NCBI GenBank assembly: GCA_001412365.1
Contig: LKUE01000283.1
Coordinates: forward strand, 1-10,669
Length of the DNA stretch: 10,669 nt
Source: Desulfuromonas sp. SDB
GTDB lineage: Bacteria > SDB-A
Direction: 5' to 3'
Part shown: piece by piece, positions 391 through 10,446 of the stretch
How positions within the stretch are numbered: position 1 is the first letter of the stretch
How the letters are laid out: each line of letters begins with the position of its first letter
The notes under the pieces: model-generated
The model's input: only the letters and a program-made list of their open reading frames with translations
Told to the model about the DNA's origin: nothing
Databases searched by the model: none
Translations under genes and position numbers: made by a program

Positions 391-3300
391 TTATTTTTTT
401 GAGGAAAGTTTTTTATACAATTCTTCAGTCTTTTTTTCAGGTTCTACATCTAATTCTTCCAGGAGAATTTTACTCATACGCTGATAATGCTTGATCATTC
501 CGTTCCGGTCTTCCATCCCTGAAAAAGCTTGCAAAACCGCCCGGTGAGCTCTTTCATCAGTGGCATCAATTTCCAACAGCCGATGGGCGTAATTCAACAC
601 TTCCCGCCAATCCAATCTTTGTTCATTGATTTCAATCAGCCATAAGATGATCTCTTTGATATTTTCTTTAAGCACAATTTGTTCATCGTCAATGGGAAGA
701 GAATACATCTCCGGTAGAAAATCACCTTTATAAAGCTTTAAGGCATGTAAAGCTTTCTGCTCTGCTTTGGGGACCACTCCTTTTCTTCTATAATACAAAA
801 AATCCTGATAAGTTTGGGTAAAATCAAAATAATCAATATAGAAAAGATAATCATTCAGCTTGTAGAAAGGCTCTCCGCAGGTTATTCCCTCTGGTCCTAA
901 AAACTTCCTCAAGTAGGATAGAGTGACATGAAAGTTGTTTTGGGATTCTTTAAATCCCATATCCGGCCACAGATGAGTACTCAAAACTTCCCTGGTCACT
1001 CCCTGTTCCCCGGACATCACCAATAACAGTCCCAGCAATTCTTTTGCTTTCTTGGATCCCCATTTTTTCTCAGGTATAATTTCTCTTAATCTGGTATCCT
1101 TGACATATAACCCCCCGAAGGTATAAATGCCTTTGGTTGGTTTGAATTTAGGTTGATCCTGCTTCTCGACAATATAAGTTTTGAACAGTTTAGACAATTT
1201 TTTCTTTCCCTCTGTCTCAAAAATTTTCTGATAATATTTTAAAGATTCATTTAAACCTAGTTCAGATAATAGTTTTATCCCCTGGGTAATAATTATGTCC
1301 TTTTTCTTATCCTTTAAATTTATCCCAAAATCCATATATAACTCAGATAAAGCCACCTGAGCGTGATGTTTTTTCAATAATTTTTCTCCCTGGTGAAAAC
1401 TTTCCCATGCTTGCTCTGATTTATTCATTTTAAGATAAAATATAGCTCTGTATTTCAATATATTCGCTTCCATTAACTTCATCTTGTCTTTACGGGTTAT
1501 TTTAAGCGCTTGTTCAATTAACTGTTCTGCTTTTTTCAGCTCCTGTTTGTTAAATGCCTGTTGGATACAAAACTCCAGATAATCACATTGATAAGTTGAT
1601 CGAAGTTGTTCAAAATCGAATAATTCTTCAAATTCTTCCAAGTATTGCTCCACTTTACTGGCATTATTACCCAATTGATAAACTTTTATCATTTTCAAAT
1701 AGGATTCAATTTTCCTGTCAAAAATTTTTAAGGTTCTGGATAAGTTAAAAAATCTCTCTGCATACATCTTGGCAAAAACAAAATCTTTTTTAACTAAGTA
1801 ACAAGATGCAAGTAGGTTATAGGATTCTGCCTTCTTATGAATATGACCAATTTCAGTAATTAAATCAAGTTCACGATTTGCGTATTCGATGGAAAGATCC
1901 ACCTTACCCATTTCCCTGAGTACCAAAGCCAGGTTCCCGTAATTGGTAGCGGAAAAACCCTTGATATTTACATCCTCGGCAATCTTCAATGCTTGTTGAT
2001 AGTAATCCAGGGATTTTTTTAAATCCCCCAGATGATAACTTATGCCCCCCAGTAAATTCAGGGGGAACCACTTTCCGATTTTAAGAATTCGGGGATCAAT
2101 ATCCTCAACCAGCTTCTTTGCTTTCTGTTGAGCTTGTTTGAATTTATCCTGCTTTACCAGCATAACACAGTGATTGTACCTTATTCTCCATTGGGGAGGT
2201 AAATCTTCAGGGTCAATAATTTCCAGTGACTTTTGATATAATTTTTCTGCCTGGTTGAAATTGTTAATCTCAACCATCTCCCTAACATACATGCTGAGGC
2301 AGTACTGGGCTCGTTCAACCATATTAAATTTCATTAAATCATTAAATACTTGTTCACCTTCCGTCCAGGGGGGTAATCTCTCTCCAGAATATCTTTTGAT
2401 TTCAAATTCATCCATGTTCAAGTCAACATTAATTTTCTCATCCAGATCAGGGATATTCTTAGCAATAGCTAAGGCAATCATCAGATAGTGACGAGATTTA
2501 GTCCATTGACTGAAATAGGAGTACTTCTGAAATGCTTTTCTAACTATTTGCAACAACTTTAAAGAATACTCTTCGGGCAGCAACAACTGAGTCCGATGAT
2601 AGGCTATTTCTTCAATTAATTCATCATCTTTATCTTCAAGATAGTCAGCAATTTCTCGGTGTAATTTTCTGCACTGTAATTCAGGAATGTAATCCAGTAC
2701 TACCTTTCTGATCAAAGGATGAGAAAATTCAAAATTTCCTTGACTGCTTAAATATATGACCTGCTCCTGCTTTAACTTTCCTAATATCTTTTTTACATTT
2801 TTAATCTTAAAAGTTTTCAGGATTTCCTCTATCTGAGGAATAGTGAAACTCTCCCCCAATAATGCCGCTCCCCTTAATACAGTCAATTCCTGCGGGGAGT
2901 AGTTCATAATTTTCTTCTTGAAGAAAATACCCAGGTTATCCGGAACCGGAAAATCCTGATAAAAATCTTCAATTTGCCATCCTTGATCGGTAATTTTAAG
3001 AATATTCATCTTGTTCAGCGCAACCAGCAACTGTTCAATAAAATAAGGATTGCCTTGAGTATATTTATACATCCAGGAAACAAAACTAATCTGTCCTGCA
3101 TGATGATCCAGATTAACCAGGGCAGTTTTTACCTGATTAGGGGATAGTTTTTCTAAATTGATTATCTCGTCCACTCTTCCAGAATAATCCGGAGAATTAG
3201 AAGATTCAGCAATATCCAAAGTTAATACGATCAATATTGGGAGATTTTGAACCTGAGCTAACAAATAATCTAAAAATTCATGACTAATGCTGCTCAGCCA

Positions 3301-3771
3301 ATGGATATCATCAAATAACATCAACACCGGATAAACAGCCGCCAGATTTCCCAGGAATTTTATAATGGAATCGTAAACATCAGTTAAGGGAACATCCTGC
3401 CGGGTTTTTACTTCATAGGGGTAGTACTCTAAAATCTTTTCATCAACCGAAGCAATATTAGCTAAATCCGCAGAGCTAATAAATTTTGCTAACTTGGCGG
3501 TTCGATTTTCAATACTTAAAAAATAACTGCTGACTACAGAATCCAGGGGATAGGTAGATTTAGATCCATGATGTCCGCACAAATGAAATATCTGGAAGGG
3601 AGGGATTTTCAGATCCTGTTTGAATTTCTCCAGCAGTTCGGATTTTCCAATACCCGCTTCCCCTTTGATCAGAACTTTCCTGCTTCCGCCTTCAAGAATT
3701 GAAGATACACTGTTTTCCAACAACCTCAATTCTTTTTCCCGTCCAATGAATGGCAATTTAAAATTATGCAT
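391..3771 (-). CDS. STAND ATPase-TPR-SARP-like transcriptional regulator (1126 aa)
   Basis: A large signal-integrating transcription factor. Residues 8-360 form an AAA_16/STAND ATPase: Walker A GEAGIGKS (37-44), Walker B VLMLFDDIHW (149-158) and the LAL-like motif TQGNPYFIEQLL (238-249). Residues about 480-860 are TPR-like helical repeats, clearest at 574-680. Residues about 882-985 resemble the OmpR-type winged helix of SARP regulators, including SKKAKELLGLLLV (906-918) and SYLRKFLG (952-959). Residues about 985-1115 form a BTAD-like bacterial transcriptional activation domain, with YKGDFLPEMY (1014-1023). In most large SARPs the DNA-binding part is N-terminal; here it is C-terminal, as in MalT/LAL proteins. 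The family is expected to bind ATP, assemble upon sensing a ligand through the TPRs, and activate transcription. Its divergent position suggests control of the lux-type operon (inference). The ATG at 3771 starts just before the conserved PFIGREKEL entry to the ATPase, and it has no clear ribosome binding site. Confidence 0.88.
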   Translation of the reverse strand: MHNFKLPFIGREKELRLLENSVSSILEGGSRKVLIKGEAGIGKSELLEKFKQDLKIPPFQIFHLCGHHGSKSTYPLDSVVSSYFLSIENRTAKLAKFISSADLANIASVDEKILEYYPYEVKTRQDVPLTDVYDSIIKFLGNLAAVYPVLMLFDDIHWLSSISHEFLDYLLAQVQNLPILIVLTLDIAESSNSPDYSGRVDEIINLEKLSPNQVKTALVNLDHHAGQISFVSWMYKYTQGNPYFIEQLLVALNKMNILKITDQGWQIEDFYQDFPVPDNLGIFFKKKIMNYSPQELTVLRGAALLGESFTIPQIEEILKTFKIKNVKKILGKLKQEQVIYLSSQGNFEFSHPLIRKVVLDYIPELQCRKLHREIADYLEDKDDELIEEIAYHRTQLLLPEEYSLKLLQIVRKAFQKYSYFSQWTKSRHYLMIALAIAKNIPDLDEKINVDLNMDEFEIKRYSGERLPPWTEGEQVFNDLMKFNMVERAQYCLSMYVREMVEINNFNQAEKLYQKSLEIIDPEDLPPQWRIRYNHCVMLVKQDKFKQAQQKAKKLVEDIDPRILKIGKWFPLNLLGGISYHLGDLKKSLDYYQQALKIAEDVNIKGFSATNYGNLALVLREMGKVDLSIEYANRELDLITEIGHIHKKAESYNLLASCYLVKKDFVFAKMYAERFFNLSRTLKIFDRKIESYLKMIKVYQLGNNASKVEQYLEEFEELFDFEQLRSTYQCDYLEFCIQQAFNKQELKKAEQLIEQALKITRKDKMKLMEANILKYRAIFYLKMNKSEQAWESFHQGEKLLKKHHAQVALSELYMDFGINLKDKKKDIIITQGIKLLSELGLNESLKYYQKIFETEGKKKLSKLFKTYIVEKQDQPKFKPTKGIYTFGGLYVKDTRLREIIPEKKWGSKKAKELLGLLLVMSGEQGVTREVLSTHLWPDMGFKESQNNFHVTLSYLRKFLGPEGITCGEPFYKLNDYLFYIDYFDFTQTYQDFLYYRRKGVVPKAEQKALHALKLYKGDFLPEMYSLPIDDEQIVLKENIKEIILWLIEINEQRLDWREVLNYAHRLLEIDATDERAHRAVLQAFSGMEDRNGMIKHYQRMSKILLEELDVEPEKKTEELYKKLSSKK

Positions 3772-3794
3772 GATTAAATTTGGTTAAAACTCAG

Positions 3795-3804
3795 TTAATA
3801 TTAA
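3795..3804. promoter_or_regulatory. Palindrome TTAATATTAA upstream of the regulator gene
   Basis: A perfect 10-bp palindrome lies 24 bases upstream of the regulator start codon. It overlaps two GTTAA units, at 3783 and 3794, spaced 11 bp apart. SARP regulators are known to bind direct repeats with a helical-turn period of about 11 bp, so an autoregulatory operator is conceivable. The region is so AT-rich that chance is a strong alternative. Confidence 0.2.
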
Positions 3805-3812
3805 TTTTATAT

Positions 3813-3839
3813 ATTATAATTAAATGAGTTCAAATACAA
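3813..3839 (-). promoter_or_regulatory. Possible promoter of the regulator gene
   Basis: On the minus strand a perfect TATAAT (3813-3818) is preceded by TTGTAT (3834-3839) with a 15-bp spacer, which is shorter than the optimum of 17. It would give a leader of roughly 35 bases before the ATG at 3771. The call is weak because of the spacing and the AT-rich context. Confidence 0.3.
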
Positions 3840-3884
3840 CTGCTGGATTAAATTTATTATTATCAATTAAGCCGGTAAATCTGA

Positions 3885-3913
3885 TTGACCAGGGAATGTT
3901 TAGTGTTTATAGT
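3885..3913 (+). promoter_or_regulatory. Sigma70-type promoter of the lux-type operon
   Basis: TTGACC (3885-3890, five of six consensus bases) and TATAGT (3908-3913, five of six) are separated by exactly 17 bp. Transcription would begin near 3920. The leader would be about 50 bases to the candidate AUU start at 3969, or about 135 bases to the first ATG at 4056. It is the best-formed promoter in the divergent region and faces the operon. The upstream 3820-3884 stretch is where an activator would bind, but I see no clear heptad repeat array there. Confidence 0.55.
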
Positions 3914-3957
3914 TGATAATATAAAAAAGTTCATCCTTAATTACACATTTATCTAAT

Positions 3958-3962
3958 GAGGT
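3958..3962 (+). promoter_or_regulatory. Candidate ribosome binding site for an upstream luxE start
   Basis: GAGGT lies six bases before an ATT codon at 3969 that is in frame with the LuxE gene. This is ideal Shine-Dalgarno spacing. By contrast, the first ATG of the gene at 4056 has no purine-rich site at the right distance; the nearest, CAGGA at 4026-4030, is 25 bases away. This site is the main sequence support for initiation upstream of 4056. Confidence 0.45.
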
Positions 3963-3968
3963 TGAAAA

Positions 3969-4055
3969 ATTTCTTTTTCATCTATTGACCAGCTTTGTTC
4001 AACAGAATGTGCTTATGATTTTTCTCAGGATAATAAGAATTTATTCTTTAAAGCG
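3969..4055 (+). other. Likely N-terminal extension of the LuxE protein, in frame but without an ATG
   Basis: The frame of the downstream LuxE gene stays open back to a TGA at 3963-3965. The 29 extra codons encode a LuxE-like N-terminus: SSIDQL corresponds to the SSEIDDL segment I recall from Vibrio LuxE, and the following segment bridges smoothly to MRENFQFQFQRQSYVKFLC. Adding it gives 380 residues, close to the roughly 370-380 of classical LuxE. There is no ATG, GTG or TTG in the stretch; the first plausible start is ATT at 3969 behind GAGGT. Alternatively a one-base indel in the A5 (3965-3969) or T5 (3974-3978) run hides an ATG start at 3956. The homology rests on memory of LuxE rather than an alignment run. 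Confidence 0.55.
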
Positions 4056-5111
4056 ATGAGGGAGAATTTTCAATTCCAATTCCAGCGCCAGTCCTATGTA
4101 AAATTTCTCTGCGAACAGCATCAATTTTTTCCTGATAATTTAAATGATTATGAAGACTTGTTTAAAATCCCCCCTGTGTTTGTGGGTATTCTAAAAATAA
4201 ACCGTTTCTGCAATGTTTCCGAAGAAGATATCACCATGACCTTAACCAGCTCGGGAACCAAGGGTCAGAAAACCCAGCTTCTACTGGACAAACAGAGTCT
4301 AGAACGGCTGGAAAAGCTGGCAGATAGTTGTTTTACCAGCTTGGGATATAAAGATGATACTCCTGCCCATTACCTGGTTTTTGGATATGAGCGAAGTAAA
4401 GCTGAACATATCGGAACCAGCTGGAGCGACCAGCAGAATTTAAAATACGCTCCCCAGAAATCACTTCATTGGACCATCAAATGGAACGATCAAAAAGGTG
4501 AATTTGATTATGACGGAGAAGCAGTGGCTAGATTATTTCTGGAGTTAATTAATGATGCTCCGGTAAGATTAATTGGTTTTCCCGCTTTCATCCATGAAAT
4601 GGTTACCCTGGCTAGAAAACTTAAAACTAAGATCAAAGTTGATCCCCGGAGTTTTATAATTGCAGGGGGAGGATGGAAAAATCACCAGGGAACACCCTTG
4701 TCTCACCAGCAGTTTGCCCAGTTTATGGAAGAAAATACCGGGTTACCTCATGAAAATGTAAGAGATGCTTACGGGATGGCAGAGCACGGAGTTCCTTATG
4801 CCAGCTGTGGGCAAGGTCATCACCATGTGCCCATTTACAGCAGGTTGAAAGTAATTAATCCCCTTTCCTCCCAATGTTTAGATTACGGGCAGCAAGGTCT
4901 TCTTCAGTTGTTCACCCCTTATAATACCACTCAACCCAATCTGTCCATTCTTTCCACTGACCTGGTGGTACTGGAAAAAGACTGTCCCTGCGGACTTCAG
5001 GGCGATTACATAAAGTCCATTCAGCGGGGGGGGAAGAAGAAACACAAAGGCTGCGCTATTGCCGCCCAGGAAATTCTCAGCCAGCACCAGGAGTCAAACA
5101 ATAAATCATGA
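4056..5111 (+). CDS. luxE: LuxE-type acyl-protein synthetase (fatty acid activating subunit)
   Basis: LuxE activates a fatty acid with ATP to acyl-AMP, moves the acyl group to its own cysteine and passes it to LuxC for reduction. Diagnostic features are the adenylate-forming loop TSSGTKGQKTQ (64-74), GGGWK (204-208), DAYGMAEHG (237-245) and a C-terminal KGCA whose Cys333 matches the acylated cysteine of luminous-bacteria LuxE. It lacks the C-terminal lid domain of PaaK-type ligases, as LuxE does. Counted from the first ATG the protein has 351 residues and is N-terminally short; homology continues about 29 codons upstream (3969-4055). It is the first gene of the operon and its stop overlaps the next ATG (ATGA). 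A G8 run at 5026-5033 precedes the Cys333 codon. The substrate is unknown; a long-chain fatty acid is inferred from the family. Confidence 0.88.
   Translation: MRENFQFQFQRQSYVKFLCEQHQFFPDNLNDYEDLFKIPPVFVGILKINRFCNVSEEDITMTLTSSGTKGQKTQLLLDKQSLERLEKLADSCFTSLGYKDDTPAHYLVFGYERSKAEHIGTSWSDQQNLKYAPQKSLHWTIKWNDQKGEFDYDGEAVARLFLELINDAPVRLIGFPAFIHEMVTLARKLKTKIKVDPRSFIIAGGGWKNHQGTPLSHQQFAQFMEENTGLPHENVRDAYGMAEHGVPYASCGQGHHHVPIYSRLKVINPLSSQCLDYGQQGLLQLFTPYNTTQPNLSILSTDLVVLEKDCPCGLQGDYIKSIQRGGKKKHKGCAIAAQEILSQHQESNNKS
5026..5033 (+). repeat. Poly-G tract (G8) inside the luxE coding region
   Basis: Eight consecutive G residues encode part of RGG just before KKKHKGC. The tract ends 18 bases before the TGC codon of catalytic Cys333 (5052-5054). 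A one-base slip would replace the last 25 residues, including the cysteine. G runs of this length are known slippage sites in phase-variable genes. Confidence 0.6.
5089..5093 (+). promoter_or_regulatory. Possible ribosome binding site of the LuxC-PaaK gene
   Basis: AGGAG lies 14 bases before the ATG at 5108, inside the end of luxE. The spacing is longer than ideal. Together with the ATGA stop-start overlap it suggests translational coupling to luxE. Confidence 0.4.
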
Positions 5112-7750
5112 GTGAACAGCAGTTTCATCAGAGAATATTCGGCAAGTCATATCCCCCCAGGGAAATTGATATATCCCTGGTCAATCAGCTTTTTAATCCC
5201 TCCGTGCTCCTGGAAAAAAGCGTTAAATGCAGAGAAATCCCCATTGAAGATATCCTCATCACTCTGGATAAAACCGGACAGGTTTTAGGAGATCCCCAGG
5301 GATATTATTATCAGCAATGTCTATCCCTGATGCCAGCGTTGATAAATTATTCTCCGAAAATGGTGAAAAAAGGACTGCAAATTCTTAAACTGCTCTTATC
5401 CCGTGATTTTCTCATCACCAGGCTGAATTGTCTGGGGAACTACCATGCCCTTGACTACTTTGCCCCCATCCCCTACGGCAGATATCAACGGACAATGCCT
5501 ATCGGCACTATTTGTCATATCGCTGCAGGTAATGTGTTTCTAGGCTCTGTGGATTCGTTGATTTACGGAATGATTACTAAAAATGTAAATATTTTAAAAG
5601 CTTCCCGTCAGGATTTAATTTTTCCCACTTTATTTTTCCAGGCACTGGAGGAAGTTGATCAAAAAAACAATATTATACCCTATGTCAGTTTAGTTTACTG
5701 GAGCAGAGATCAACAGCAGGTTACTGACTACATCAAAAAAAATGTTGATGCAATTTTACTGTTTGGAGGAGAACAGGCAGTTAAAGAATACAAGCAGAAC
5801 CTTTCCCCCCAGACTGAATTTATATCCTTCGGACCCAAGATCAGTTTTGCGGTAATCACCGAAGAGCTGGATAATCAGCAGTTAAACCAAGCAGCTAAGG
5901 GACTGGCTATGGATGTGGTGATATGGGAGCAACGGGCTTGCACCAGCTGCCAGAATATTTTCATCGAGGACCGGGGACAAACTGAAATATTTGCCGGTTA
6001 TCTTGATCAATACCTGGCAGAGTTATCCGATCAATATCCCCAAAATAATCTGGATATAAATGATCAGGTGGAAATCAGAAAAGAAAGAGAATTGGCTGAC
6101 TGGCAAAAATTTCAGGGGGAGGGAGATGTGCTGACCACCGAAGGCAAACAATATACAGTTATTGTGGATAGTTCAAATGATCTCAAGGATTCGCCGTTAA
6201 ACCGTACCGTATTTATAAACAAAGTGGATAAATACCAGGATGTTCTCCAGGGAAACATACAGTTGATGAAATACTACATGTCTACGGTTTGTATATGTTC
6301 TGAAACCAAGGAAATGGAAATTACCGAGAATTTTATGGCCAGGGGGGTGATGAGATTTTGCAAGCCGGGAACCATGTCCCTGGGAAAGGACGGATCCACT
6401 CCCCATGATGGAGTTTACATCCCCACTCAGCTGGTTAGACTGATCAATTTGGAAGACCTCCCCCCTCAAAAATATTCAACCACCTACATTGCCTCAGAGG
6501 AAAAACAGAAAATTCTGCTTTCCCGGGTCAATGCTCAACTGTTAAATTCTCAAAAATGCGAATTTTACCGGGAATTGTTTAAAGAATCTAAAATAAATTT
6601 AGATAATCTCGAACAGTTTAAAACCCTCCCCGTTACTGAAAAAGATCATTTAGTAAAATACGGACCTCCTTCCAGTGCGAAAATGCTCACAGATAAGCCG
6701 GAGAGAGCTTATATATTTTCAGCAGGAGGTACTACCGGATCGTTAAAATACGTTTACTACCGCGCTGATGAATTTGCCCGGTCCGAACTGTACTGGGGAG
6801 AAGGATTTAAAGCAGCAGGGATAACTCCTGGAGACCGGACTGCAAACTATCTCAAGGCAGGAGCATTCTGGACTGCCTTCCCCGCCACTAACCAGGGTTT
6901 AGAACAGACCGGGTGCACTATCCTCTCCTTAACTGCCAATCAAACCGAAGGGGAAACCCTGGGTTATCTGAAAAGATTTCAACCTACTGCCATCTTCGGA
7001 GTGAGTACAAATCTAATTTTACTGGCGGAAACCGCCCGGGAACAGAAAATTGATGTGCACATTGAAAAACTTTATTATACCGGCGAACACCTGGCAAGCG
7101 GCGCCAGGGATTTTCTGAAAGATACTTTTCATGCCGGCTTTATCCGTTCCCTGGGCTATGCTGCTGTAGAAGTAGGTCCAATCGGTTTTCAGTGTGAACA
7201 TTGCCGTGAAAATGAATTTCATGTCTTTGAATTTTATAACTATGTGGAACTGGATTCGCAGGGAGACATTTTGGTGACTACTCTGGACCGTTTTCTGCAC
7301 CCGCTGATCAGATACCGTATCGGAGACCGGGCGGAACTGATTGCCCAACCATGCTCCTGCGGCCGCACCTCAGTTAAAATCAAACTCCTGGCTAGAGATA
7401 CGGATATGATTAAATTGAATTTCGCCCATATCTACTTGAAGGATTTATTTGAAATTGCCGATCAATATAAGCAGCTTTCTTTTCAATTCCAGGTGATCGT
7501 TGAACCTGAGGATACCTTTATAAAAATCAAGGTTGTCTTTGAAACCATTGATCACCAAATAGACCTGCAGGACAAACAGCTAATTGAAAATATTGAAAAG
7601 TCCATACTGGATAAATCCAAGGAGATTAAACAAAATTGGGAAAAACTTAAGATTTCTCAATTTTCAGTTGAACTGGTTGCTCCCGGTTCAATTAAACGGG
7701 TGAGCAGAACCGGAAAAATCAGGAGAATTATCGATCGGAGGTCATTTTAA
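5108..7750 (+). CDS. LuxC-type fatty acyl reductase fused to a PaaK-like adenylate-forming domain (880 aa)
   Basis: Residues about 1-450 are a LuxC acyl reductase, an aldehyde dehydrogenase relative that takes the acyl group from LuxE onto a cysteine and reduces it with NADPH to the aldehyde. Evidence is the PIGTICHIAAGNVFLGSVDS block (131-150), TKNVNILKAS (157-166) and the catalytic motif WEQRACTS with Cys278. Residues about 465-880 are a complete PaaK-like domain: LPVTEKDHL (507-515), the ATP loop SAGGTTGS (538-545), GYAAVE with Glu688, a probable zinc site C696/C699 with C749/C751, YRIGDR (736-741), and the C-terminal lid sequence ending SRTGKIRRIIDRR with Lys870. Classical LuxC is a single domain of just under 500 residues, so the second half is an added enzyme. 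No stop or frame change separates the halves. The ATGA overlap with luxE and the TAATG overlap with the next gene imply coupled translation. The acid used by the PaaK-like half is unknown. Confidence 0.87.
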   Translation: MSEQQFHQRIFGKSYPPREIDISLVNQLFNPSVLLEKSVKCREIPIEDILITLDKTGQVLGDPQGYYYQQCLSLMPALINYSPKMVKKGLQILKLLLSRDFLITRLNCLGNYHALDYFAPIPYGRYQRTMPIGTICHIAAGNVFLGSVDSLIYGMITKNVNILKASRQDLIFPTLFFQALEEVDQKNNIIPYVSLVYWSRDQQQVTDYIKKNVDAILLFGGEQAVKEYKQNLSPQTEFISFGPKISFAVITEELDNQQLNQAAKGLAMDVVIWEQRACTSCQNIFIEDRGQTEIFAGYLDQYLAELSDQYPQNNLDINDQVEIRKERELADWQKFQGEGDVLTTEGKQYTVIVDSSNDLKDSPLNRTVFINKVDKYQDVLQGNIQLMKYYMSTVCICSETKEMEITENFMARGVMRFCKPGTMSLGKDGSTPHDGVYIPTQLVRLINLEDLPPQKYSTTYIASEEKQKILLSRVNAQLLNSQKCEFYRELFKESKINLDNLEQFKTLPVTEKDHLVKYGPPSSAKMLTDKPERAYIFSAGGTTGSLKYVYYRADEFARSELYWGEGFKAAGITPGDRTANYLKAGAFWTAFPATNQGLEQTGCTILSLTANQTEGETLGYLKRFQPTAIFGVSTNLILLAETAREQKIDVHIEKLYYTGEHLASGARDFLKDTFHAGFIRSLGYAAVEVGPIGFQCEHCRENEFHVFEFYNYVELDSQGDILVTTLDRFLHPLIRYRIGDRAELIAQPCSCGRTSVKIKLLARDTDMIKLNFAHIYLKDLFEIADQYKQLSFQFQVIVEPEDTFIKIKVVFETIDHQIDLQDKQLIENIEKSILDKSKEIKQNWEKLKISQFSVELVAPGSIKRVSRTGKIRRIIDRRSF
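7737..7742 (+). promoter_or_regulatory. Shine-Dalgarno site of the ATPase-GNAT gene
   Basis: GGAGGT lies seven bases before the ATG at 7750, inside the last codons of the preceding gene. This is a strong site at ideal spacing. It fixes the start and shows that this genome uses Shine-Dalgarno initiation at least in part. Confidence 0.7.
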
Positions 7751-9228
7751 TGGATCCCATTTACAACACATCCCTTAACCTGCTAAATCAAAAACCTTAT
7801 GTAAATATTGCCTTAAATTATCTTAAAGGCGAATTGGAATTAGTAGGTTTTGACCAAACTTCAACTGACCAGATGTTAACTGCCTGTAAGCAGGCAATTG
7901 AAAACGTAATCCGTCATGCCTATCCCCAGGACCATCAAGCTCATTTTCAGATTATCACCATACATGTGCCCCGGGGTATTAAAGTGGTGATAAAAGATCA
8001 GGGAATCCCCTTTGATTTTGAAAAGATTGAAAAAGATGAACAAGTTAAATCTGATCAACAAAAAAAACCGGGCTTGATGATTATCAAGGATAATGTGGAC
8101 GGATTGGAATTTCATAATTTAGGTCCGGAAGGAAAAGAACTTCAGCTGGAGAAATTTCTTCACCATTCTTCCCCGGTAATTACAGATGAAAAACCGCCGG
8201 ATAAACTGCCGGAAGAAGAAAAATTAGCCGATCATACTCCCCTCCCCTTCACTATGAAAATAATTGAACCGGATGAAGCCATAGAAGTATCCAGACTGAT
8301 TTACAGATCCTATGGATACAGCTATCTTTCCGATGACCTCTACTATCCTCAGCGAATTATCAATCTCATTGAACACGGGCATCTAATCCCAGTAATCGCC
8401 CTCAGTCCGGATAAACAGATTGCCGGATACTGTTCACTACAGCTTGAAAACACTGAGGACAATATTGCGGAAATGGGACAAGCGGTGGTCACCCCTGAAT
8501 TCAGAGGTCATAAATGTCTGGAGCAGATGTCCGAATATTTACTACACACTGCAAAAGATATGGGATTGCACGGCTTGTTCGTTCAGGCAGTCACTAATCA
8601 TCTGTATTCCCAGAAAAGTTCCCACCGGTTCGGGACCAGGGATTGTGCTGTTCAACTGGGGTACTGTCCTGCGGATATGGAGTTTAAGAAAATTGAAGGA
8701 GCAAGCGACCAAAGGGTATCAGTGGTATTATCCTATTTGAATTTAAATCAAGAAAATTCACACTTCATCCGGATTCCGGAAAAATATGAAGATATAATCA
8801 AGGAAATTTACCAAAACTTAAATATTGAAATTAGCGACCTTCTCCCGGAAGCTCTGGATCATCCCGTACCTGAACATACTTTTTCCCGGATCAAGATCTT
8901 AAACAAAGCTAATATCGCCAAATTTCACGTATTTCGAATCGGCCAGGATTTCTCCAAAGTTTTAAACACCGGGTTGAAAAAACTCCGTCATCAGCATGTT
9001 GATGTAATCTATCTCCACCTGAGTATGGAGGATCCCCAGATTGAATCAGCGGTAACTGACTGCAGTTATCAGGGATTTATTTTTTCAGGGGTACTTCCCC
9101 ACGAATCAGCAGGGGACAGTATTATTTTGCAATATTTGAATGATATTGAAATTGACCTGGATTTACTTCAGCTGGAATCTGAAATTTCAGGTAAGATTAA
9201 ATCCTTGATAAAATCCGCTATAAAATAA
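7750..9228 (+). CDS. RsbW/SpoIIAB-like ATPase domain fused to a GNAT-like domain and an extra C-terminal domain (492 aa)
   Basis: Residues about 5-137 form a GHKL ATPase of the anti-sigma kinase type: N box ACKQAIENVIRHAY (45-58), G1 box DQGIPFDF (83-90) and a reduced G2 loop KPGLMIIKD (106-114). At the place where RsbW/SpoIIAB kinases carry the catalytic Glu there appears to be Gln48, while the Mg-binding Asn52 remains, so it may bind ATP without phosphorylating. After an acidic, proline-containing linker (140-166) comes a GNAT-like fold (168-330) with VVTPEFRGHKC (246-256); the usual second glycine of the acetyl-CoA loop is replaced. Residues about 338-492 are a further alpha/beta region with YQGFIFSGVLP (440-450) that I cannot name. 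No sigma factor or STAS partner lies nearby. Its place in a biosynthetic operon suggests an acyltransferase or a regulatory subunit; the function is unproven. Confidence 0.75.
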   Translation: MDPIYNTSLNLLNQKPYVNIALNYLKGELELVGFDQTSTDQMLTACKQAIENVIRHAYPQDHQAHFQIITIHVPRGIKVVIKDQGIPFDFEKIEKDEQVKSDQQKKPGLMIIKDNVDGLEFHNLGPEGKELQLEKFLHHSSPVITDEKPPDKLPEEEKLADHTPLPFTMKIIEPDEAIEVSRLIYRSYGYSYLSDDLYYPQRIINLIEHGHLIPVIALSPDKQIAGYCSLQLENTEDNIAEMGQAVVTPEFRGHKCLEQMSEYLLHTAKDMGLHGLFVQAVTNHLYSQKSSHRFGTRDCAVQLGYCPADMEFKKIEGASDQRVSVVLSYLNLNQENSHFIRIPEKYEDIIKEIYQNLNIEISDLLPEALDHPVPEHTFSRIKILNKANIAKFHVFRIGQDFSKVLNTGLKKLRHQHVDVIYLHLSMEDPQIESAVTDCSYQGFIFSGVLPHESAGDSIILQYLNDIEIDLDLLQLESEISGKIKSLIKSAIK

Positions 9229-9246
9229 AATACCCTATAATCTGCC

Positions 9247-10446
9247 ATGCTCATAAAAAACAATAAAAATTTCTTTTTGCTGTGGCAGGGTCAGCTGGTC
9301 AGCCAGGTGGGGAGCAAGGTTTACCTAATTGCTCTGGCTTGGTATTTTGTTTCAGTTCTGGATGACAATCATGCCTTCATCACCATAATGCTGATAAGTT
9401 CCCTCCCCGGATTGTTATTCGGTTTGTTGATCGGTCCGTTCATTGACCGCTGGAATAAGAAGTATATTTTAGTTATCAGCGATCTGATTTCCGGCATAAT
9501 TGTACTGCTTGTCGCTCTGCTGATCTGGTTTAAAGTTGACAATCCCCTGCCCATCTACGCCGCAGTATTTATCCTTAACATATCCGTAATTTTCTTCAAT
9601 CCCGCAGTGACTTCGATTATTCCCTCTCTGGTTAAAAAAGAGCAGATTCAGGAGGGGATTTCTATGAACACTATGGTTCAGTTCATCGCCCAGTTTATCG
9701 GATGTGCGGTGGGAGGACTGCTGGTGGCTTTTCTGGGTATTTTTGCCACTATTTTACTCAATGCAGTTTCCTACATCCTCTCAGCTTTTTCGGAGATGTT
9801 TATTAAATACAAATACCAACTCTCTCCGGTTAAGCTCAATCATTTTCATGAATTATCGGAAGGATTCAAGTACGTGCTGAAAAACCGGCTGATCTTCAGA
9901 CCGATGCTGATATTCAGTTTGCTGAATATTTTTGCGGTGCCCATAGTGGTGTTCATTCCCATCCTGGTTGATGATTACTTCCGGTTAAGCGCAGTGTACT
10001 ACGGTTTTGCCGAATCAGGAATTCCGGTGGGGGCAATAGTAGTGGCTTTGTTCATGGCTCGAAAGCAGGTTACTGATCATCTGAAGCTGATTAAGAGCGG
10101 TTTGATTTTGATTTCCACCAGCTTTTTCCTCATTTATTTTTTCAGGGAAATCTATCTGGTCATGGCGGCTCTGCTGGCTTTCGGGATATTTTTGAATTTA
10201 ATCAACATCAATGCGATCTCCTTTTACGCCAAAAATATTGAAGCAGGTTTCCGGGGACGATTTTTCACCCTTCTGGATACGGTATCTTTTGCCACCTTCC
10301 CCCTAGCTTACCTTTTAACCGGGATTCTACTCAAGCAGTTCAGCTTGTTCACCTTGATCCTGATCAACGGAATTGCCATGCTGGCTATCGGTCTGAGCTC
10401 GGTGGTTTACTTGAAAAAACCTTCCCACCCCTCCCCGGATATGTAA
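9247..10446 (+). CDS. MFS efflux transporter, MFS_3/EntS-like (399 aa)
   Basis: An inner-membrane proton-coupled exporter of the major facilitator superfamily. About twelve hydrophobic segments are visible, for example residues 25-36, 45-66, 74-95, 101-118, 145-162, 165-182, 218-240, 255-270, 282-298, 302-322, 342-362 and 367-388. The loop after segment 2, GPFIDRWNKKYI (63-74), is MFS motif A. The stretch FFNPAVTSIIPSLVKKEQI (116-134) and VGGLLVAF (155-162) resemble the enterobactin and macrolide exporter group. Family length is about 400 residues, so the gene looks complete. It starts 18 bp after the previous stop without a clear ribosome binding site, so translation probably depends on the upstream gene. 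As last gene of the operon it most likely exports the product or protects the cell from a reactive intermediate (inference). Confidence 0.85.
   Translation: MLIKNNKNFFLLWQGQLVSQVGSKVYLIALAWYFVSVLDDNHAFITIMLISSLPGLLFGLLIGPFIDRWNKKYILVISDLISGIIVLLVALLIWFKVDNPLPIYAAVFILNISVIFFNPAVTSIIPSLVKKEQIQEGISMNTMVQFIAQFIGCAVGGLLVAFLGIFATILLNAVSYILSAFSEMFIKYKYQLSPVKLNHFHELSEGFKYVLKNRLIFRPMLIFSLLNIFAVPIVVFIPILVDDYFRLSAVYYGFAESGIPVGAIVVALFMARKQVTDHLKLIKSGLILISTSFFLIYFFREIYLVMAALLAFGIFLNLININAISFYAKNIEAGFRGRFFTLLDTVSFATFPLAYLLTGILLKQFSLFTLILINGIAMLAIGLSSVVYLKKPSHPSPDM

Follow-up and report, generated by a model that had tools for sequence, protein, structure and literature searches.

What does a pair of LuxC- and LuxE-type genes do in an operon that contains no luciferase? 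The question is raised by a stretch of 10,669 nucleotides from Desulfuromonas sp. SDB (hereafter the window), which spans the entire contig C283 of a 98.7%-complete genome of 3.14 Mb in 433 contigs. Four intact open reading frames lie on its forward strand and encode a LuxE-like protein (4056-5111), a LuxC-PaaK fusion (5108-7750), a HATPase-GNAT protein (7750-9228) and an MFS exporter (9247-10446), joined in this order by a 4 bp overlap, a 1 bp overlap and an 18 bp gap. Pfam and NCBIfam profiles identified LuxE in the first product, LuxC plus PaaK/AMP-binding in the second, HATPase_c_2 plus GNAT in the third and MFS in the fourth, and the tight operon described by an initial annotation of this DNA is thereby confirmed. 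The second ligase listed in that annotation exists as a PaaK-like ligase domain, but it is fused to LuxC and has no gene of its own.

The operon resembles luxCDABE in that it encodes LuxC and LuxE family proteins with their catalytic cysteines, which presumably perform acyl-protein transfer and NAD(P)H-dependent reduction. The conserved acyl-carrying cysteine of the LuxE-like protein (motif KHKGCAIAA, codon at 5052-5054) and Cys278 of the LuxC domain (5234-6439; motif RACTSCQ, with a conserved PHDG motif) align with their counterparts in the Photobacterium LuxC-LuxE complex 7xc6 and in the true lux proteins encoded by a luminous Enterobacterales genome. These residues, already pointed out in the initial annotation, are also conserved across homologous clusters, and we take them to be catalytic from what is established for the lux enzymes. 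The operon differs from luxCDABE in lacking luxAB and luxD, in carrying a fused ligase and in a LuxE that groups with LeupA of the leupeptin pathway; moreover, LuxE (105 bits against a lux equivalog cut-off of 550) and LuxC (144 against 750) stay far below the lux thresholds. The bacterial-luciferase family PF00296 had no match in the whole genome and matched 10 of 14 control genomes. A lux operon with its luciferase nearby was therefore rejected, and with it the possibility of luxAB genes just outside the window; the earlier suggestion that the operon does not serve bioluminescence holds.

A characterised pathway with this gene content, which the initial annotation had been unable to name, is that of leupeptin (acetyl-Leu-Leu-argininal), a non-NRPS route in which AMP-dependent ligases form the amide bonds and a reductase forms the aldehyde (PMC11212599). 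Its four genes, leupABCD, form an operon next to a transporter gene (PMC8283571), described in Klebsiella, Photorhabdus and Xenorhabdus according to the accounts of Li et al. 2020 given in PMC8283571, PMC11480411 and PMC11212599. Enterobacterales genomes were searched in order to tie leupABCD to a sequence, and both published leupAB primers were found in a Klebsiella genome (G1144) with 0 mismatches and, as published, 1,235 bp apart. The operon at this site encodes a LuxE-like protein of 378 aa, a LuxC-PaaK fusion of 802 aa, a PaaK ligase of 446 aa and a GNAT of 305 aa, beside a 419-aa transporter. The ATG in the leupA primer (MKIAIHN) was considered as the leupA start and rejected, the primer lying inside the Klebsiella gene and out of frame.

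The window shares with leupABCD the LuxE-like gene, the LuxC-PaaK fusion, the GNAT, a neighbouring transporter and the active-site motifs, and it likewise contains neither luciferase nor NRPS genes. Its LuxE gives 194 bits to Klebsiella LeupA (32% identity, E 1e-62) versus 82 bits to true LuxE (23% identity) and contains the GCA motif of the LeupA-type acyl-cysteine, most of the 880-aa fusion is alignable with LeupB (151 bits), and the GNAT matches LeupD (55 bits, E 6e-12). The PaaK-like AMP-forming ligase domain (6473-7747) has the GG(T/S)(T/S)G phosphate loop, the motifs GYA(A/S)V(D/E)xGP and RY-x-x-G-D and the C-terminal lysine; these motifs and the fusion to LuxC, the latter found in nearly all homologous clusters, are common to the window and the leup clusters, and generic PaaK differs. 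In contrast to leupABCD, the window lacks the stand-alone ligase LeupC, its GNAT bears an N-terminal RsbW-like domain, its exporter is another MFS, its proteins are only 23-32% identical to the Leup proteins, which weighs against the assignment, and it belongs to a deep sister clade. Assignment of the operon to the leup pathway type is well supported by sequence homology, and we put at roughly three in four the probability that it encodes a non-NRPS, leup-type pathway for an N-acylated peptide aldehyde, in a sister clade with one ligase instead of two.

The match to leupABCD makes an N-acyl peptide the likely substrate, rather than the free fatty acid proposed earlier. A fatty acid reductase pathway in which the fatty aldehyde is converted to an alcohol, amine, amide or signal for export would be in line with the catalytic residues that LuxE and LuxC share with the bioluminescence enzyme, yet we regard it as improbable in view of the low lux scores, of a LuxE nearer to LeupA, and of the fused ligase and GNAT, which belong to the leup set. 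It is further opposed by genus g561, where all four genomes tested contain a true luxC that scores above the curated threshold, for which reason the genus is presumably Photorhabdus, and a separate leup fusion as well; true lux and leup-type systems thus coexist there, yet are distinct. The LuxC domain alone does not discriminate, a LuxC of another pathway scoring nearly as well on a leup profile (177 versus 212 bits). The lux-like 'dark operon' is a distant relative of leup rather than a crippled light-producing operon.

An AMP-forming activation coupled with reduction to an aldehyde is also found in GriC and GriD, which are PaaK/F390-like and LuxC-like, respectively. In grixazone biosynthesis, GriC (AMP-binding) and GriD (reductase) yield 3-amino-4-hydroxybenzaldehyde (PMC10179220). 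The LuxC-PaaK fusion of the window could by this likeness be an aromatic carboxylic acid reductase that supplies an exported aromatic aldehyde derivative. GriC and GriD are, however, encoded by separate genes, act on an aromatic substrate and come with neither an acyl-cysteine LuxE nor a GNAT, so that the LeupA-like LuxE with its conserved cysteine and the GNAT of the window would be left unexplained; there are no aromatic-acid genes nearby, and we consider this assignment very unlikely.

How the window relates to the leupeptin clusters was deduced from trees. The fusion proteins fall into two deep clades separated by a long branch. Clade I comprises the window, its closest relative L031 (an unclassified bacterium), Clostridium senegalense, Desulfobacteraceae, Holophagales, Chloroflexi, Armatimonadetes, Eremiobacterota, Muiribacteriota and some Bdellovibrionota, and clade II consists of the leup clusters. 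A tree of the LuxC domain only was discarded, as the outgroups were too divergent and L002 was drawn to them. A second PaaK gene occurs in none of the clade I loci and lies nearby in 42 of the 43 clade II rows sampled in the tree; the single exception (L042) was dismissed as a cluster without a second ligase, because the gene, with 53% identity, sits elsewhere in its genome. Three clade II loci outside the tree sample show no second PaaK, namely L076 and L079, where the contig ends first, and L134, which is damaged. In L134 (6175-8103, genome G911) the LuxC-PaaK protein is shortened to 481 aa and a 160-aa PaaK end precedes the GNAT gene.

Neither another PaaK-like gene nor a stand-alone LeupC-type ligase was found in the 98.7%-complete genome of the window, and the window is therefore a sister variant that falls short of a leupeptin cluster proper. 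In a tree of ligase domains whose rooting is uncertain, the clade II ligases split into two sister groups, fused and stand-alone, which suggests, as far as such a tree can indicate, that they arose by duplication within that clade and that one ligase is ancestral. Rather tentatively, clade I may be seen as a second deep leup-type clade that makes distinct acyl-dipeptide or otherwise short aldehydes with only three enzymes, the first of them being controlled, in a part of the clade, by an RsbW-type partner-switching kinase to which the acyltransferase is fused, in Bacillota, Acidobacteriota, Thermodesulfobacteriota, Chloroflexota, Armatimonadota, Eremiobacterota, Muiribacteriota and Bdellovibrionota.

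Substrates, order of steps, functions of single genes and dipeptide length can be proposed only by analogy with leupeptin. The GNAT would acylate the amino group of an amino acid, and the PaaK domain, which probably forms a peptide bond, would adenylate the acyl-amino acid and couple it to a second amino acid. The C-terminal carboxylate of the resulting acyl-dipeptide would then be adenylated by LuxE and held on its C-terminal cysteine, from which Cys278 of LuxC would take over the acyl group for NAD(P)H-dependent reduction to the aldehyde. The MFS protein would export the product, a putative inhibitor of serine or cysteine proteases. The earlier proposal that LuxE and LuxC act in the synthesis of a small exported metabolite agrees, by analogy, with this leup-type gene content, but the aldehyde, taken there for an intermediate, is more probably the active moiety of the product.

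One ligase fewer than in leup leads to the prediction of an acyl-dipeptide aldehyde, and by the same analogy the product is probably shorter than leupeptin. A tripeptide aldehyde like leupeptin would still arise if the fused ligase acted twice or if an unrelated ligase added a bond; the remainder of the leup set is present and the second bond could come from LuxE or an unseen gene, but given that no further PaaK-like gene exists in the nearly complete genome and that the ligases of clade II resemble duplicated, specialised copies, such a product seems unlikely. As protease inhibitors, peptide aldehydes such as leupeptin are in wide use, and genome mining for them mostly goes through NRPS genes. 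The window, on the reading of a one-ligase leup-type pathway, marks an uncharacterised branch whose three-enzyme core should be easy to reconstitute, so that the number of ligases can be tested directly as a rule for peptide length.

The start of the LuxE gene deserves a comment. Homology continues in frame on the 5' side of the ATG at 4056 up to an ATT at 3969, where the extension of the window (IDQLCSTECAYDFSQDNKNLFFKA) can be compared with that of Clostridium senegalense L032 (IDMLCNREDAFNFTKETEELFVKA). Because the conserved frame extends upstream of the ATG, the rare start codon ATT at 3969 is probably, judging from the alignment, the true start. A GAGG-like motif precedes this codon.

The third protein (492 aa) combines an RsbW-like GHKL ATPase domain (7762-8163), a GNAT N-acyltransferase domain (8242-8769) and a C-terminal alpha/beta domain, and by sequence it would be a LeupD homologue bearing an extra N-terminal kinase-like domain. 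Its AlphaFold model (mean pLDDT 81, pTM 0.76) was compared with known structures by VIA-align. Residues 5-138 adopt the fold of Bacillus subtilis RsbW (Z 18.6, rmsd 1.6 over 112 residues to 6m37; phmmer E 1.6e-4 to 6m36), residues about 165-340 a GNAT fold (Z about 13.7), and residues about 341-492, for which the fold search gave no clear coverage, have a strand-helix order like half a GNAT. The N box (ENVIRHAY) and the G1 box (DQGIPFD) of the ATPase domain are present; its G2 box reads KKPGLMIIK versus GxGL, which makes kinase activity uncertain. Among the loci examined, the HATPase-GNAT fusion is confined to the window, L031 and the Holophagales locus L034. Because L031 has lost the N-box asparagine and the GNAT of C. 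senegalense has no ATPase domain, the RsbW-like domain looks accessory and regulatory, outside catalysis. The RsbW fold is shared with RsbU/RsbV/RsbW modules, but the domain in the window forms part of an acyltransferase fusion and has no STAS or phosphatase gene next to it.

In L034 (3603-7884), genes for a STAS protein (3603-3929), an RsbU-like PP2C phosphatase with its own HATPase (3898-6357) and the HATPase-GNAT are followed by LuxE, LuxC-PaaK and MFS genes, all with the same orientation. This biosynthetic operon appears to incorporate a partner-switching module, the STAS and RsbU-like domains being called by eye and with a HATPase profile.

The distribution of the genes was surveyed by an alignment-based scan with one genome per species, which returned 285 encoding stretches and from which 80 were retained; a scan of genome contigs with a single protein gave no match, and an alignment query was required. 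The gene set is present in more than 80 sampled loci from many phyla. A chance grouping of four genes in one genome was thus rejected, and conservation of the neighbourhood without luxAB, as anticipated in the initial annotation, was borne out. A GNAT gene was seen in 81 of 86 loci examined and an MFS gene in 59 of 86, several clade I loci having no adjacent exporter. When flanking open reading frames were clustered, PaaK, MFS, GNAT, LuxE and LuxC-PaaK alone recurred across distant hosts, and the other common clusters corresponded to antisense or overlapping frames or to local genes. The MFS_3 / H+ antiporter-type exporter of the window was not significantly similar to the transporter beside the Klebsiella leup operon. 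Clade I is more heterogeneous than clade II, as illustrated by the Eremiobacterota locus L037 (8896-11574), where a LuxC-PaaK fusion stands without LuxE, GNAT or exporter in the surrounding 14 kb. In L031, a 463-aa frame (932-2323), by eye Schlafen/AlbA-like, separates the LuxE and LuxC-PaaK genes.

This non-NRPS pathway type recurs in Streptomyces, Bdellovibrionota, Enterobacteriaceae and many uncultured phyla. A plasmid search retrieved a PaaK-MFS-GNAT-LuxE-LuxC/PaaK set in Streptomyces and a LuxE-LuxC/PaaK-PaaK-GNAT set on Salmonella plasmids. Streptomyces roseus ATCC 31245 is a leupeptin producer (PMC10548850). Its genome contains the five-gene non-NRPS set (L086, 3932-11394), which suggests a route by which Streptomyces makes leupeptin. 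Leupeptin in this genus has also been attributed to NRPSs. On conjugative IncF plasmids of Salmonella (L026, 8578-14336; L023, 8578-13455), the leup-type operon lies beside recombinase and transposase genes, and in L023 the GNAT gene is unannotated. The Salmonella version was not found in Escherichia coli genomes by blastn, and phages gave weak partial matches only.

The three genomes from the same family as the window contain no homologue, and the operon has a G+C content of 0.40-0.44 compared with about 0.35-0.38 in sampled protein-coding contigs of the genome and 0.36 in the neighbouring regulator gene. Taken with the spread of clade I over many phyla, both findings indicate that the operon was acquired horizontally. 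The deviating G+C content (the genome sample lies at about 0.36), the atypical G2 box and a GNAT CoA loop that reads RGHKCL versus the consensus RxxGxG/A could also be signs of a decaying, non-functional remnant left after transfer. Such a fate is most improbable for four intact and tightly coupled frames with conserved catalytic motifs. The loop substitution was rejected as proof of decay, since lysine recurs at the same site in L035 and L058.

Upstream of the operon and divergent from it, a gene on the minus strand (391-3771; G+C 0.36) encodes an AAA_16/TPR/BTAD protein of 1126 aa. It is a candidate regulator of the operon outside the conserved cassette, and the first neighbourhood survey revealed no homologue at the 85 other loci. 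The A+T-rich region between the divergent genes (3772-3968) includes a promoter-like TTGACC-17-TATAGT at 3885-3913 on the forward strand, a kind of match that is no commoner here than in shuffled sequence. At its far end, the contig stops 223 bp past the MFS gene. Next to the regulator gene, a small minus-strand frame (150-345, fewer than 80 aa) is rich in CxxC pairs and resembles a double zinc ribbon.
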